Notes under the pieces: model-generated | Databases searched by the model: none | Told to the model about the DNA's origin: nothing | What the model saw: the letters and a program-made list of their open reading frames with translations, nothing else | Virus record (IMG/VR): IMGVR_UViG_3300036851_000252 | Span: 1-53,777 of that record | Source: a virus | Length of the DNA: 53,777 nt | Reading direction: 5' to 3' (one strand) | Program-made: the position numbers and the translations under genes | In this document: one piece after another, positions 23,681 through 49,537 of the stretch | Position numbering within the stretch: position 1 is the first letter of the stretch | How the letters are laid out: every line of letters begins with the position of its first letter

Positions 23681-24541
23681 ATGTATAATGCAGTATTAAA
23701 ATCACAAATAGATCAATCAGTCAATTTCGTAGAAGAGGAACTCGTAGGATTCATAGAATCACGATACGTTCGCAAGGTAGATGATTATTTCATTTGCTAC
23801 CTATCTTCACAAACCGGATGCAATCGTGGATGCAAGTTCTGTCACTTGACAGCAACCAAGCAAATGGCATTCATGGATTCAGATTACCAATCGTTTATTG
23901 GACAAGCATGTCAGGTGTTCCGCCATTACAAACGCGAGAAGCCAGCAAAGTATGTTCATTACAACTTCATGGCTCGTGGCGAAGCTTTAGCAAACAAATT
24001 CATCATCAATGAAGCAGACAAGATTTTGGGAACTCTTGGTGAGCTTGCAATCAAAGACAAGTTGTATCCAAAGTTCAACATCTCAACGATCATGCCAAAG
24101 ACATTGAAGGTATCTCTTACAGACATCTTCAAGATGGTCACACCAACGATGTACTATTCGTTGTATAGTGTTGACGATGCATTTAGAAAAGAATGGTTAC
24201 CAGCAGCAATGCCAGTAGACACAGCTCTGGATCTTTTGATGGATTATCAGTACATGTCAAAGAAGATCATTAAGATCCACTTTGCCTTCATCAAAGGCCA
24301 GAACGATTCAAAAGAAAGTTTGCTTGAAATGTGCAATGAACTCAATAAGAGAAAGTTGCTTTGTGAGTTCAACCTCGTTCGATACAATCCATTCTCACCA
24401 ATTCAAGGTGAAGAATCTGATGATCAAACGATCTATGAGAACTTGGAGTTGCTGAGAGAGCACTTCAAAGGCGATGTACAAATGATTCCACGTGTCGGAT
24501 TCGATGTAAAAGCATCGTGCGGCATGTTTGTTGATAAGTGA
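23681..24541 (+). CDS. RlmN-like radical SAM RNA methyltransferase
   Basis: 286 residues, about 90 shorter than bacterial RlmN, lacking the N-terminal domain. Cluster motif CNRGCKFC (Cys47, 51, 54) in SSQTGCNRGCKFCHLTATK; the preceding Cys39 and the C-terminal Cys280 (VKASCGMF) match the two Cys that RlmN uses for methyl transfer; MARGEALAN corresponds to the MGMGEPL motif. RlmN makes 2-methyladenosine at 23S A2503 and at A37 of some tRNAs. Lying inside the tRNA array, this enzyme may act on phage tRNAs or on ribosomes; target unproven. Confidence 0.88.
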   Translation: MYNAVLKSQIDQSVNFVEEELVGFIESRYVRKVDDYFICYLSSQTGCNRGCKFCHLTATKQMAFMDSDYQSFIGQACQVFRHYKREKPAKYVHYNFMARGEALANKFIINEADKILGTLGELAIKDKLYPKFNISTIMPKTLKVSLTDIFKMVTPTMYYSLYSVDDAFRKEWLPAAMPVDTALDLLMDYQYMSKKIIKIHFAFIKGQNDSKESLLEMCNELNKRKLLCEFNLVRYNPFSPIQGEESDDQTIYENLELLREHFKGDVQMIPRVGFDVKASCGMFVDK

Positions 24542-27633: not shown

Positions 27634-27890
27634 GCAGAGGATTTTCAAAACACTTTGCTAATCTGGCCAAACAGCCAGCTATTGTTCTGGAAACAGGTGC
27701 GCATCCTTCCAATGCAGTTGGAAAACACTGTGTTGCAGAGAAGATGGGATATGATTTTCATCACAATTTGTATTGGTCTGTTCGTACTAAACAAATGGAG
27801 CATCCACGCTCATGTGTGATGTGTGAGCACGAAAAGAAGAATTCACCAGAAGCACGATATGATCGCGCGATGTCAGTTATAGATGCGTAG
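27630..27890 (+). CDS. Small Cys/His-rich protein with C-terminal YDRAM motif
   Basis: 86 residues. His and Cys in GKHCVAEKMGYDFHHN and RSCVMCEHEKKN could bind zinc. Ends RYDRAMSVIDA, sharing the YDRAM tail with three other genes here. Its last codons and stop lie within the first ten bases of tRNA-Trp. Confidence 0.72.
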   Translation: MSRGFSKHFANLAKQPAIVLETGAHPSNAVGKHCVAEKMGYDFHHNLYWSVRTKQMEHPRSCVMCEHEKKNSPEARYDRAMSVIDA

Positions 27891-27956
27891 CTCAATTGGA
27901 AGAGTCACGGTCTCCAAAACCGTTGGTTGGGGGTTCGAGTCCCTCCGCATCTGCCA
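27881..27956 (+). tRNA. tRNA-Trp(CCA)
   Basis: Acceptor AGATGCG/CGCATCT, anticodon stem ACGGT/ACCGT with loop CTCCAAA, T loop TTCGAGT, G73 and CCA encoded. Overlaps the end of the upstream gene by ten bases. Confidence 0.95.
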
Positions 27957-28228: not shown

Positions 28229-28485
28229 ACATTGAAGAAGCATTTAAACCACAGATTGCAGCACAGGACCAAAGAATGCGTCCATGGGTGCACAATCCGG
28301 ATGCATTTGAGGTAACAAGAATCTACCTCATGCTTCGTTATGAAATTGATGGTAGACCAACGTGCGATGTTGTATATGAACACAACACACCAGAAGGTTA
28401 TCAGAGATTGAAGGATAACTTTGAATTCATAACTGTAATCGATCTACTTCCAGTATTCAGACGAAAGATTTGCCCCATCAGCTGA
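28225..28485 (+). CDS. Small unknown protein
   Basis: 86 residues, coupled to the previous gene. RIYLMLRYEIDGRPTCDVVY and YQRLKDNFEFITVIDLLPVF suggest a small alpha/beta fold. The stop lies 14 bases inside the next tRNA. Not recognised. Confidence 0.7.
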   Translation: MNIEEAFKPQIAAQDQRMRPWVHNPDAFEVTRIYLMLRYEIDGRPTCDVVYEHNTPEGYQRLKDNFEFITVIDLLPVFRRKICPIS

Positions 28486-28548
28486 CGGGTACAGCGGCCT
28501 GCCTCCAAAGCAAGCGCTCAGGGAGTTCAATTCTCTCGTGGGGTGCCA
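28472..28548 (+). tRNA. tRNA-Trp(CCA), second copy
   Basis: Acceptor GCCCCAT/GTGGGGT, D stem GCTG/CAGC, anticodon stem CCTGC/GCAAG with one mismatch and loop CTCCAAA, T loop TTCAATT, G73 and CCA encoded. Overlaps the end of the upstream gene. Confidence 0.82.
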
Positions 28549-42147: not shown

Positions 42148-43347
42148 ATGAAGAAAACATACATGAATATCAAAAGCAAGCTAATTGCAAAAATCAACAA
42201 CCTCTATCTTGCAATTAGAAATTACTTCGAACAGCGTTGGGTCAAGCGTCTCGTTCAAGAGCTAACATCAGACATTACAGACGATGCTGCTCGCAGAATT
42301 TACATACAGCTGCTGAACAATAACATCGAACAATTGAGAATTGATAGTTATGGTTCGACCACACATATCATTTCAAACCGTCGTGATCGAATTGCATTTT
42401 TTGCAAAGACCATCAAGAAGGCAATTGAAGTTACACTCCCAATAAGAGGGCTTGTTGGTATTCAACCAATGTCTGGTCCGGTCGGTCTTGTATATGCATT
42501 GCGCTATCGTGAAACAGATCCAACCAACGAATCACCTGTTAAGCACATGACATTGGATGTTATGAGTGAAGCAGTGGCTGCTGATACCCGTAATCTTCAA
42601 GCCTCATATACGATTGAGGCGATGCAAGACATGAAAACACTTCATGGCATTGATGTTGAAAAGGAACTATCAGACGCTCTTGGTATCGAATTCGGTATTG
42701 AAGCTCAAAATGAAATTCTCAAAGATGTAGTACAGTTGGCGGAGAAATCAGGAAATGTAGTTGAGTTGAAACCAAACAGAGTATTGTTTTTAGCTGAAGA
42801 TGCATTGCATATTGCACTTGCAAGAGTCGCAAATGAAATCGCTCGTAAGACACGACGCGGTACTGGCAATTTCATTGTAACAAGTCCTTTGGGTGTTACC
42901 ATACTGCAAACAACACGAGGTCCATGGCAATTCAGACCTGTGAAACAATCTGGCACCTATGTTGGTGGTGTAACCTATGTTGGTGACATTATTGGTGTCA
43001 CACTGGCAGCTGAGCAGGTAATATACAAGGTATATTCGTCACTTTCATCATTGTCCCTGTTTCCTGATAATGCAGGTGTTGATTTCTTAGTTGGATTCAA
43101 AGGTAACAACGGTGAAGTTGATTCTGGTTACTTTTGGGCACCATACATCACTGCAATGACGCGTGGTGTTATGGTAAATCCTAATACATTCCAACCACAG
43201 GTTGGTTTCTACACAAGATATGGTAAAGTATTCACAAAGCCTACTGAAGACCCTGCTTCAAAGGTTTCAGCAAACTATTATGGATTAGTTAAAGTAATTT
43301 CAACCGAATCATCGCAGGCTGAAGAGACTACGGTCAACCCAGCTTGA
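42148..43347 (+). CDS. gp23-like major capsid protein paralogue
   Basis: 399 residues, shorter than T4 gp23 (521). Several gp23 blocks are clear: GIQPMSGPVGLVYALRYR, YTIEAMQDMKTLHGIDVEKEL, RVANEIARKTRRGTGNFIV, and NPNTFQPQVGFYTRYGKVF. The N-terminal about 65 residues are unrelated and basic; a proteolytic site of gp23 type is not obvious. It is driven by a sigma70-type promoter with an operator, beside hsp20, not by a late promoter, so it is perhaps a vertex or accessory capsid protein or an early decoy. The main capsid gene is outside the window. Confidence 0.85.
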   Translation: MKKTYMNIKSKLIAKINNLYLAIRNYFEQRWVKRLVQELTSDITDDAARRIYIQLLNNNIEQLRIDSYGSTTHIISNRRDRIAFFAKTIKKAIEVTLPIRGLVGIQPMSGPVGLVYALRYRETDPTNESPVKHMTLDVMSEAVAADTRNLQASYTIEAMQDMKTLHGIDVEKELSDALGIEFGIEAQNEILKDVVQLAEKSGNVVELKPNRVLFLAEDALHIALARVANEIARKTRRGTGNFIVTSPLGVTILQTTRGPWQFRPVKQSGTYVGGVTYVGDIIGVTLAAEQVIYKVYSSLSSLSLFPDNAGVDFLVGFKGNNGEVDSGYFWAPYITAMTRGVMVNPNTFQPQVGFYTRYGKVFTKPTEDPASKVSANYYGLVKVISTESSQAEETTVNPA

Positions 43348-43524: not shown

Positions 43525-43651
43525 TACTACTGATACGAGTAAGCGGCATGCAACACAAACAGACCATAGACGAAGTCTCAGTTAGATGGTCGGGTAGTGG
43601 CTTAGAGGAATGATGATTTAGAAACAGAATCGCGGCTATGAGTTGAATATT

Positions 43652-43984
43652 ATGGAAAGAAAATACAGAGGTTGTAAAATAGAGGCTTTGTTCGATCAGC
43701 CAAGAGGTTGGCGTGCTGCAAAGTGGTCTGAACTTGAATGTGGACAATCTATTGTTGTGGAATCTAAAGATGGATGTGTTCACACACATACGTGTTATCG
43801 AGCTCCCAAGCCAAAGAACATGTCACCGCTTCAGTACTACAAGAAGTACAAGGTAGTGCCTGATCGATATGAATATGTGCATAATGGACGGTATTACTGC
43901 AATCCAGCACATTGCTCGCAATCATGGAAGAACAAGAAGGAACGGGATAAGCATTTGAATGGTGCATACTCCCTGTTAGATTAA
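43652..43984 (+). CDS. Unknown Cys/His-containing protein
   Basis: 110 residues from ATG 43652. YRGCKIEALFDQPRGWRAAK, then SPLQYYKKYKVVPDRYEYVH and YYCNPAHCSQSWKNKKERDK; the CXXXXC with His may bind a metal. Ribosome site weak. Not recognised. Confidence 0.68.
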   Translation: MERKYRGCKIEALFDQPRGWRAAKWSELECGQSIVVESKDGCVHTHTCYRAPKPKNMSPLQYYKKYKVVPDRYEYVHNGRYYCNPAHCSQSWKNKKERDKHLNGAYSLLD

Positions 43985-43985
43985 T

Positions 43986-44222
43986 ATGAGAAAAATTGAA
44001 CTGGCAAGGGATGATCTGGGTGCAAAGGTGTTAGCCGATGGAAAGCCAATTACTATTGGTTGGACCAAAGAACTTATTGAAGATCTTGGTGGTGTGTGCA
44101 ACCTTGATGTTGGCTTAGAGATAGCTTCAGTAATGGAAGAAGTCATGAAGCAAAATACAGATCTCTCTGACGATGAACGGGCAGAAGTAATGCGCCAATT
44201 TTTGCATTTGGAGAAAGAGTAA
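43986..44222 (+). CDS. Small acidic protein
   Basis: 78 residues, ATG one base after the previous stop. KIELARDDLGAKVLADGKPI, then helical acidic end. Shares its stop bases with the next start (TAATG). Unknown. Confidence 0.74.
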   Translation: MRKIELARDDLGAKVLADGKPITIGWTKELIEDLGGVCNLDVGLEIASVMEEVMKQNTDLSDDERAEVMRQFLHLEKE

Positions 44223-44413
44223 TGTGTGCAATTAGCGTAATACACGACTATGGTCGCAGCATTCCAGATACTGAGTGGAATCGCGAGTCACTTGAAGCAT
44301 TCAAGAAGCTCGTGGATGAAGCAAAAAAGTTCGATGAAGCAACAAAGCAACCACATTGTGAAGATCCAGAAAAGTTGAAGTGGGTTGAAGTGGTAGAGAG
44401 CAAACTTGAATGA
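44222..44413 (+). CDS. Small acidic protein
   Basis: 63 residues. CAISVIHDYGRSIPDTEWNR, a pattern seen in short proteins of large phages, then a Lys/Glu helix. ATGA overlap with the next frame. Unknown. Confidence 0.7.
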   Translation: MCAISVIHDYGRSIPDTEWNRESLEAFKKLVDEAKKFDEATKQPHCEDPEKLKWVEVVESKLE

Positions 44414-44589
44414 ACAAGCCATGGATTGTGTTTGAAGTTCATCCATATGGAAAGGACAAAAACGACAAAGTCCATAGCAAGCATGAATTTGAAAGTGACG
44501 CTATTGATACAGCGTAGAAATTGAACAGCAACACTCAACCAGAAGGTCCGCAGTATATTGTTGCTCAACAACGCAACCGCGATAAATAA
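44410..44589 (+). CDS. Small ORF interrupted by in-frame amber (TAG)
   Basis: ATG 44410 gives 35 residues (NKPWIVFEVHPYGKDKNDK...DAIDTA), then TAG at 44515-44517. The same frame continues 23 codons (KLNSNTQPEGPQYIVAQQRN...) to TAA at 44587. The two parts read like one small protein of about 59 residues with a Leu-type codon changed to TAG. It may be a nonsense mutation, readthrough, or a regulatory stop ahead of the release-factor gene. Confidence 0.5.
44581..44588 (+). promoter_or_regulatory. T4-type late promoter (GATAAATA)
   Basis: GATAAATA 24 bases before the release-factor ATG, followed by AAGGAG. Confidence 0.6.
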
Positions 44590-44612
44590 CAGTTTAACAC
44601 AAGGAGACGACG

Positions 44613-45308
44613 ATGAAACTTAATATCGAAATCAGAGCCGCAGAAGGCGGAGACGATAGCAAGCTTTTCGTTGGCGACTTAGCAAGTGCGTACATCAGAA
44701 TGGCTAACAAAGCTGGCTGAAAGTGTACCGTTCTTGAGAAGAAGCCAAGCGAGAAAGGCTTCTTTCAAATAGTCCTTCAAATCGAAGGCAACAATCTACA
44801 ACAACTGCACCATGAAGCTGGTGGACACCGTATACAACGCGTGCCTCCAACAGAACGGCATGGACGTGTGCAAACAAGCACAGTTACTGTTGCTGTGATT
44901 GATCCAAACAAGAACGTAGAGCATCCAAGTTTGAAACGTGATGAAAACGATTTCAAACTTGAGTGGTACTCAGGTTCTGGTTCGGGTGGTCAACACAGAA
45001 ATAAACATCAGAACAGTTGTAGAATAACCCATATTCCAACAGGAGTAGTGAAAACCGCACAAACGAGAAATCGCCAGTCCAGTGAGAAAGAGGCAAGGCA
45101 ATCCTTGTTAACCCACTTGGATAGCATGTACCATCAAGCTAAGCGAACCACATTTGATTCAGACCGTAAGGGTCAAGTAGGGTCAGGCATGCGTGGAGAT
45201 AAGATCCGCACATACCGTTTCCAAGATGATCGTGTTGAAGACCATCAGACAGGAAGAGGAGCTTCGTGTAAGAAGGTAATGGGTGGCAATTTTGAGAATT
45301 TGTGGTAA
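44613..45308 (+). CDS. RF1-like release factor with in-frame UGA at codon 36
   Basis: ATG 44613 with AAGGAG upstream. The frame reads NIEIRAAEGGDDSKLFV...AYIRMANKAG, then TGA (44718-44720), then KCTVLEKKPSEKGFF, GGHRIQRVPPTERHGR, SGSGGQHRNKHQN (GGQ at 125-127 if the TGA counts as one codon). This is a release factor lacking domain 1, with a PxT-type (RF1) decoding tripeptide. In RF1 the residue at the TGA position is Trp, so TGG to TGA explains it. No frameshift is needed. Either readthrough regulation or a pseudogene; a start at 44841 would lose conserved N-terminal parts. Confidence 0.82.
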
Positions 45309-45328
45309 TCAATGACGAGGATAAAAAT

Positions 45329-45559
45329 ATGCCGCGCAAATACGTATACACAGATCAGAAATCAGGCAAACAGTTGTTTGAAACAATTGTTGCCAACTAC
45401 GTGTCATCAGAAGATGTAGACAAGCAGATGTTTGAAAAGACAAAGCGTGATCCACGTTTGGATCCGTTCATCGAACGTAAAATCACTGTCGTTGGTGAGA
45501 CAGAAGTTAAACAAGGCGGTCGGTTCGACAAGAACAAGAAGACTAAAGGATTTGTATGA
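45329..45559 (+). CDS. Small basic protein
   Basis: 76 residues from ATG 45329, GAGG nine bases upstream. PRKYVYTDQKSGKQLFETI, KTKRDPRLDPFIERKITVVG and a basic end. ATGA overlap with the next gene. Not recognised. Confidence 0.74.
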   Translation: MPRKYVYTDQKSGKQLFETIVANYVSSEDVDKQMFEKTKRDPRLDPFIERKITVVGETEVKQGGRFDKNKKTKGFV

Positions 45560-45759
45560 AAGAAATTCCAATTTCAGCTGCAAAAGATATTGCTCACAAA
45601 TATGGCTATGATCAAATTGTAGTTATTGGTCGCAAGACTGGTGACAATGGTGGTGAACATGTCACAACGTACGGTGTAGATAAAGAGCACTGTGGCGTTG
45701 CTGCTCAGATTGGTGATTTTCTGAAATACAAAGTCATGGGATGGAAAAAGGAAAGCTAA
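45556..45759 (+). CDS. Small conserved-type phage protein
   Basis: 67 residues. ISAAKDIAHKYGYDQIVVIG, then GEHVTTYGVDKEHCGVAAQI. A short family I have seen in many large phages and some bacteria, function unknown. TAATG overlap with the ASCH gene. Confidence 0.76.
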   Translation: MKEIPISAAKDIAHKYGYDQIVVIGRKTGDNGGEHVTTYGVDKEHCGVAAQIGDFLKYKVMGWKKES

Positions 45760-46121
45760 TGTATATTTCACGTGCTCTTATAATCAAAACTCCTTGGACA
45801 GATCTTATCCTGAAGGGTGAGAAGACATGGGAGATCCGTGGCAGCAAAACAAATATTCGTGGTACGATCGGTATTATTGAATCAGGTACTGGTACGATCG
45901 TTGGAGCAGTAGATCTGATCGATTGTATCGGTCCATTGTCTGTTGAAGAGATGAATAAACACGGAAAGAAACATCAGCTAATAACACCAATGTACGCTGA
46001 CGAGATGCCATATCCTAAAACATATGCTTGGGTTGTTGACGGTCCCGTTAAGTTTAAGAAGCCCGTCCCGTATAACCATCCCATGGGCGCGGTGATCTGG
46101 GTTAATTTGGATAACACATGA
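45759..46121 (+). CDS. ASCH-domain protein
   Basis: 120 residues from ATG 45759, AAAGGA upstream. ALIIKTPWTDLILKGEKTWE, then RGTIGIIESGTGTIVGAVDL and KPVPYNHPMGAVIWVNL form the ASCH beta barrel, a domain related to PUA that binds RNA; one relative hydrolyses N4-acetylcytidine. Probably acts on RNA or nucleosides. ATGA overlap with the next gene. Confidence 0.85.
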   Translation: MYISRALIIKTPWTDLILKGEKTWEIRGSKTNIRGTIGIIESGTGTIVGAVDLIDCIGPLSVEEMNKHGKKHQLITPMYADEMPYPKTYAWVVDGPVKFKKPVPYNHPMGAVIWVNLDNT

Positions 46122-46354
46122 CTGAACCATCACATGATCTTGTTGGCCTAATGTTCGGTGGCACTAGCGATGAAGCTGAAGTAGTTCGGTGGTGCCGCAA
46201 TTGCGGCGCTGTTGTAATCGACCTTGAATATGATGGTCGTACCGCAGCAGGTGCCATCATGAAGATGCGTGTACCAACACTGACACAGGATACACACTGT
46301 CGTAGTCCAGATAAGTTGGAACATTACAGACAAACTGGAAAGAACCGTAAATAA
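46118..46354 (+). CDS. Small Cys-containing protein
   Basis: 78 residues, coupled by ATGA. SDEAEVVRWCRNCGAVVIDL with one CXXC, DGRTAAGAIMKMRVPT and a basic end HYRQTGKNRK. Similar short proteins accompany ASCH or tRNA regions in phages. Unknown. Ends four bases before tRNA-Arg. Confidence 0.74.
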   Translation: MTEPSHDLVGLMFGGTSDEAEVVRWCRNCGAVVIDLEYDGRTAAGAIMKMRVPTLTQDTHCRSPDKLEHYRQTGKNRK

Positions 46355-49337: not shown

Positions 49338-49537
49338 AAAATCCAAAAACATTAACACCACAAGAACGTCTTGCTCGTATCGCAGAAATTATCGTCAATG
49401 TAGACGATCGCTGTATGGCATACGATGGTGCTGTCGGCGACACACTCGAAGAAATGACCAAAGATGAGATTCGTGAGATCTATCAAATGGCGATCGGCAA
49501 AAAGATCAAATATACTGTCGATTATAAGGAGCAATAA
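49334..49537 (+). CDS. Small acidic helical protein
   Basis: 67 residues from ATG 49334. TPQERLARIAEIIVNVDDRC and DEIREIYQMAIGKKIKY. Unknown, coupled to the small membrane gene. Confidence 0.72.
   Translation: MKNPKTLTPQERLARIAEIIVNVDDRCMAYDGAVGDTLEEMTKDEIREIYQMAIGKKIKYTVDYKEQ

Follow-up and report, generated by a model that had tools for sequence, protein, structure and literature searches.

The virus record IMGVR_UViG_3300036851_000252 encodes an RF1-type class-I release factor (RF) that carries a conserved in-frame TGA at a tryptophan position, and synthesis of the full-length protein seems, judging from the sequence, to need a ribosome that reads through this stop. The window, meaning the whole stretch of DNA that was analysed, comprises positions 1 to 53,777 of the record (53,777 bases). 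We consider it likely that the gene is a phage-borne third RF1-type class-I factor that requires decoding of UGA at codon 36 under the control of RF2 and tRNA-Trp, and that the amber codon in the small open reading frame (ORF) beside it is an ordinary or decayed stop. On a wider reading, to which we give about an even chance, an RF1-type third-RF family found in jumbo phages, a few Proteobacteria and large plasmids would act as a UGA-readthrough switch, in which weak RF2 activity allows the full RF to be made and to take over termination at UAA and UAG. It is very unlikely that the upstream coupled ORF with its amber codon adds a second input to this control in the window phage.

Table 1. Features of the window discussed in the text
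Feature	Positions	Strand	Evidence or remark
tRNA-Trp(CCA) with ordinary 5-bp anticodon stem	27881..27956	+	candidate UGA reader
Second tRNA-Trp(CCA), C28-A42 mismatch in the anticodon stem	28472..28548	+	
T4-type Gp23 major capsid gene	42148-43347		PHROGs/Pfam searches
Upstream neighbour of the small ORF	44222-44413		its stop overlaps the small-ORF ATG at 44410 (ATGA)
Small ORF, 35 codons then TAG	44410..44517	+	without database relative
TAG (amber), codon 36 of the small ORF	44515..44517	+	
23 codons past the TAG in the same frame, then TAA at 44587-44589	44518..44589	+	
Shine-Dalgarno-like AAGGAG of the RF gene	44601..44606	+	sequence
RF1-type class-I release factor without domain 1	44613..45308	+	Pfam PCRF and RF-1
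In-frame TGA at the Trp position, codon 36 of the RF	44718..44720	+	

The window contains 31 tRNA genes and a T4-type capsid gene, and a search for close relatives of the phage with the capsid gene found none. The genes around the 44,410-45,308 region are small and closely packed; apart from the junction between the small ORF and the RF gene, the junctions from 43643 to 46354 are overlaps or gaps of at most 21 nt, depending on the start codons chosen. A mechanical list of the ORFs in the window has 34 of 98 ending in TGA. Because TGA otherwise acts as an ordinary stop codon here, a global change of the code is not the cause of the interruption in the RF gene, and no genome-wide UGA reassignment (code 4) was found there. 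A scan of the window gave no other convincing in-frame stops.

When the TGA is read as Trp, the RF protein has 231 residues and contains the PCRF and RF-1 domains and the GGQ motif. It scores 213 bits against prfA, 122 against prfB and 61 against prfH, and lies below the NCBIfam prfA equivalog cut-off (215 bits against 400 and 213 against 423), domain 1 being absent. The predicted structure has a pLDDT of 88 and a Foldseek TM score of 0.87 to ribosome-bound RF1. In an alignment of 20 members the reading motif is QRVPPTE...HTS or QTS with small variants. We take the PxT (PPT) motif together with the RF1-type flanking Q/T residues to predict reading of UAA and UAG.

A profile search of the pooled loci yielded 120 distinct full-length matches, of which 109 score above 200 bits (100 from viral contigs, six from bacterial genomes, two from plasmids and that of the window). 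All 109 have exactly one in-frame stop, which is always TGA. In the first 80 loci the TGA is at codon 36 without exception, always after a Gly codon and before a variable one. An overlapping set of 102 has TGA at codon 36 in 100 members and at a shifted place in two, while 101 of the 102 use TGG for the Trp of codon 118 and codon 231 is TGG in all 100 that could be read; the other Trp or stop codons comprise 215 TGG and two TGA, and these two are the shifted sites just mentioned. The base after the TGA is A in 78, G in 16, C in 6 and T in none (n = 100), whereas the remaining GGN codons in these genes are followed by A in 531 of 1879 (28%) and by T in 194 of 1879 (10%); the TGA and +4 counts come from related sequences and are not independent events. 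Left out of the 109 were 47 matches of partial length and 11 distinct proteins with lower scores; of these 11, five have one or two TGA codons elsewhere and six have none (four canonical RFs, the RF of locus L086 and the Lak RF). An earlier count of the family had left out 33 loci that match in the C-terminal half only and four that do not match.

The protein itself also points to a decoded codon. The canonical RF1 structures 2fvo and 1zbt have a Trp aligned at the TGA position, and invariant residues precede and follow it in the alignment, both sides being needed for the predicted fold. Thus the RF gene has a conserved in-frame stop with conserved coding sequence on either side, as expected for readthrough. 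The reading frame is unchanged across the TGA, and the prfB-type arrangement of CUU-stop-C with a +1 shift is not found at this site. Folding of the RNA 3' of the TGA gave no strong structure (z -1.2), which counts against readthrough. That the TGA is not decoded, the gene being a pseudogene or translated by restart past the stop, is hardly credible: gene finders do call only the post-stop part (155 aa in the window) and the annotated plasmids split the gene or call the opposite strand, but all 109 proteins retain the single TGA and no other stop, constraint is strong on either side of it, and a restart would leave domain 2 without its helix and conserved GG tip, the need for both sides in the fold arguing against it as well.

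In the mechanism that we propose, the UGA of codon 36 would be decoded, most likely as tryptophan, by the near-cognate tRNA-Trp(CCA), and RF2 and tRNA-Trp would compete at this codon. Strong UGA termination would hold the RF gene low, while weakened UGA termination would let the RF be made. Since its RF1-type motifs point to UAA and UAG, the phage RF is predicted to sense the RF2 of the host rather than itself. Stop-codon control of prfB and of the Mimivirus eRF1, as presented in parts of the published accounts (PMC12421855, PMC3521657), serves as the model for this competition. In E. coli, UGA-A has been described as prone to misreading by tRNA-Trp, with a U at +4 lowering readthrough (in passages of PMC5289835), and a tRNA-Trp with a shortened anticodon stem has been described to read UGA (in passages of PMC13092985).

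Many of the RF genes are located in or near tRNA arrays. No tRNA with a TCA anticodon, the perfect UGA suppressor, was found in the stretches scanned, which are partial contigs, and this counts against the proposed decoding. The anticodon stem is imperfect in 13 of 33 distinct tRNA-Trp genes and in 3 of 29 tRNA-Phe genes. The evidence for weakened-stem tRNA-Trp as UGA readers is only suggestive, because similar proportions hold for the tRNAs for Thr (31 of 81), Gly (21 of 67) and Met (20 of 76). We also noticed tRNA genes with a CTA anticodon, i.e., amber readers, near the RF gene in loci L013 (9851-9926), L060 (10139-10215) and L165 (4784-4859), the last being another stretch of the L013 contig, and tmRNA-like matches in L013, L036 and L060.

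Family members are also present outside phages. One scan revealed full-length members in seven bacterial genomes; the TGA is present in those of Thalassospira, Jiella, Gemmobacter, Rhodovibrio and two metagenome-assembled genomes (MAGs) and missing from that of a Hahella MAG. The six of these seven genomes that were examined also contain intact prfA- and prfB-like genes, indicating that the family member is a third factor. TGA-bearing members are found on plasmid pBSY19_1 of Bosea sp. RAC05 and plasmid pRlX5 of Rhizobium leguminosarum TP16. In Jiella (CGC), R. leguminosarum (CGT) and Bosea (GCT), a codon other than Gly precedes the TGA, which counts against the proposed reading. The family is rare in bacteria: a member occurs in one of 385 alphaproteobacterial genomes and in one of 369 genomes from the class of the Hahella MAG (G056), in both cases the seed genome itself.

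More divergent members place the stop differently. On the megaplasmid of Variovorax sp. WDL1 (NZ_LR594690.1; locus L303, 2971-3675) the TGA lies elsewhere in the gene, and the annotation breaks the gene into two CDS at this in-frame TGA. Four huge phages (L082-L085; LR756502, LR756501, LR745206 and LR756504) encode divergent RFs with one or two TGA codons, none of them at codon 36, and three of the four genes have an ATA-TGA site in common. The displaced TGA in the Variovorax and huge-phage members counts against the proposed reading. In stretches of two of these huge-phage genomes, reading TGA as sense barely alters the ORF coverage, and no global TGA reassignment is evident in them. The Trp site of the Hahella sp. 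MAG locus (L212, 4001-4664), which is among the partial matches, is TGG, and the TAG of an in-frame CTT-TAG-C follows six codons on, with the rest of the gene in the +1 frame. This locus is the sole member with CTT-TAG-C and counts against the proposed reading. This site is possibly a prfB-like frameshift site with an RF1-specific stop, or an assembly error, the latter being conceivable because the locus comes from one MAG only.

We then turn to the amber codon of the small ORF just upstream. The preliminary description had drawn attention to a frame of 35 codons, a TAG and 23 further codons to a TAA, which is confirmed at 44410-44589, and to a stop at codon 36 in both adjacent genes, which is literally true (Table 1). 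The two proteins are unrelated, so the shared codon number has no mechanism behind it. The argument that two adjacent internal stops go beyond chance stands for the TGA of the RF gene, but not for the TAG, whose signal is at chance level; as the TGA is a conserved site, the argument is reduced to one unexplained stop. Most likely, the TAG belongs to a fast-evolving orphan phage gene, which it either ends in the ordinary way or interrupts as a nonsense codon of recent origin.

The codon usage on either side of the TAG bears on this choice. With 27 long ORFs as the training set, the log-likelihood score (LLR) is +9.0 for the 35 codons 5' of the TAG, which is coding-like, and +2.2 for the 23 codons 3' of it, which is ambiguous: among 10,871 open windows in a wrong frame 6.9% score at least this high, and of 718 true coding windows 18.5% do not exceed it. 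The window contains 72 stops that close a coding-like stretch, and at least 20 open codons come after 27 of them, so that, at about 7% each, chance alone should produce one or two as good. On the plus strand, higher scores were obtained at 24539, where the frame enters a tRNA-Phe gene, and at 49535, where a neighbouring gene lies in frame. The post-TAG signal at chance level fits a plain 35-residue gene that ends at the TAG and is followed by a 95-nt leader of the RF gene, within which the Shine-Dalgarno-like site is found. This reading comes close to an even chance; the gap that it requires is unusually long for this gene run.

The spacing leads to a second reading. The RF start lies 95 nt from the TAG versus 23 nt from the TAA, and the unusual gap together with the ATGA-coupled start of the small ORF favours the 59-codon frame having been coding. 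A recent nonsense mutation would then have broken the gene, or an assembly error would have introduced the stop. This possibility is tenable, if somewhat on the unlikely side: the 59-codon frame suits the operon spacing, its first part is coding-like in codon use with a compatible second part, and it bears a weak resemblance to a small gene that lies upstream of the RF in other loci, but that resemblance is not significant.

The small gene of the other loci has about 75 codons and is conserved close upstream of the RF gene, often overlapping its start, in 32 of the 96 loci that have at least 250 nt upstream. Its consensus is MYKVIGKEE..AMNVAK.LNEFVTI.GPDFEIVG.FGVDSIKDG.CPDGVKYDWNKASRIG. The small ORF of the window gave a single-comparison E of about 0.03 in the HMM match and was not accepted as a member of this gene family.

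Relatives of the small ORF were sought widely. A pattern scan of IMG/VR (40 stretches) gave none, tblastn against INPHARED gave no match at E up to 1, and PHROGs, Pfam and NCBIfam gave no match. A local tblastn on the first 80 RF loci returned chance matches only, no credible relative was found in 50 whole family records, and 28 further records, two of them shared with the 50, gave none; the whole-record search thus covered 76 distinct records, and the local tblastn alone reached the other 30 of the first 80 loci. The single match in the 50 records (E 0.035, 33% over 34 residues) was rejected, as it sits in an open frame of 3105 residues. The DNA from 44200 to 44640 had no match in plasmids. 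Locus L229, which has the RF gene nearest to that of the window (71% identical), lacks the small ORF upstream of the RF, and a tRNA-like sequence, recognised by eye, precedes the gene there. With no homologue found, the amber stands alone.

The earlier proposal of amber readthrough caused by low RF1-like activity is therefore unsupported, as the searches gave no homologue of the ORF and it is absent from the closest relative. As a functional site sensing RF1-type activity, the amber would yield a 59-residue protein and bring ribosomes near the RF start. The 23 open codons with an acceptable codon score, the ATGA coupling where a 95-nt gap would otherwise remain, the conserved internal stop of the adjoining RF gene and the UAG-reading motifs of the phage RF are all compatible with such a site. 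It is nevertheless improbable, because no relative was found in the 76 family contigs or elsewhere searched, and because TAG is not enriched upstream of RF genes (the nearest upstream ORF of the relatives ends in TAA in 41, TGA in 37 and TAG in 4 of 82). In addition, the window contains no amber-reading tRNA, the RNA 3' of the TAG folds into nothing notable (z -0.43) that might stimulate readthrough, and chance predicts one or two cases as good.

The UGA-dependent RF, by contrast with the amber, has counterparts among known systems. Stop-codon control has precedents in RF2, where it works by frameshift, and in the giant-virus eRF1. If our reading is true, the conserved UGA in an RF1-type factor represents the same control logic arising by plain readthrough, spread over phages and bacteria including Bosea, Gemmobacter, Thalassospira, Rhodovibrio and Rhizobium, and it would give large phages a testable route to tune termination of host translation. 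Since gene callers split or miss these RF genes, the family is easily mis-annotated. In the portion of the open-licence PMC literature that was covered, we found no phage or RF1-type release factor described as having an in-frame UGA.

PrfH (RF-H) is, like the phage protein, a class-I RF without domain 1 (parts of PMC1586002), and the portion of that paper's text covered here has no mention of readthrough or an in-frame stop; the phage RF differs from it in scoring only 61 bits to prfH versus 213 to prfA. Phages of code 4 or 15 likewise carry RF1 or RF2 and tRNAs (parts of PMC10746230). Their code is altered across many genes, whereas TGA stays a normal stop elsewhere here, and they carry a suppressor tRNA, whereas the stretches scanned here have no tRNA with a TCA anticodon. 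The eRF1 of Mimivirus and Megavirus (R726/mg280) is also a virus-borne release factor with UGA readthrough, in which Trp is thought to be inserted with the help of a viral tRNA-Trp (parts of PMC3521657). It is of eukaryotic/archaeal type, also has a frameshift, belongs to an unrelated protein family and functions in an amoeba host. The bacterial prfB gene shares with the phage gene an early in-frame UGA in a class-I RF gene and an increase in synthesis when UGA termination is weak. In prfB, the frame changes at CUU-UGA-C and the product reads UGA, whereas in the phage gene the frame is kept, the UGA would be read as Trp and the product is of RF1 type.
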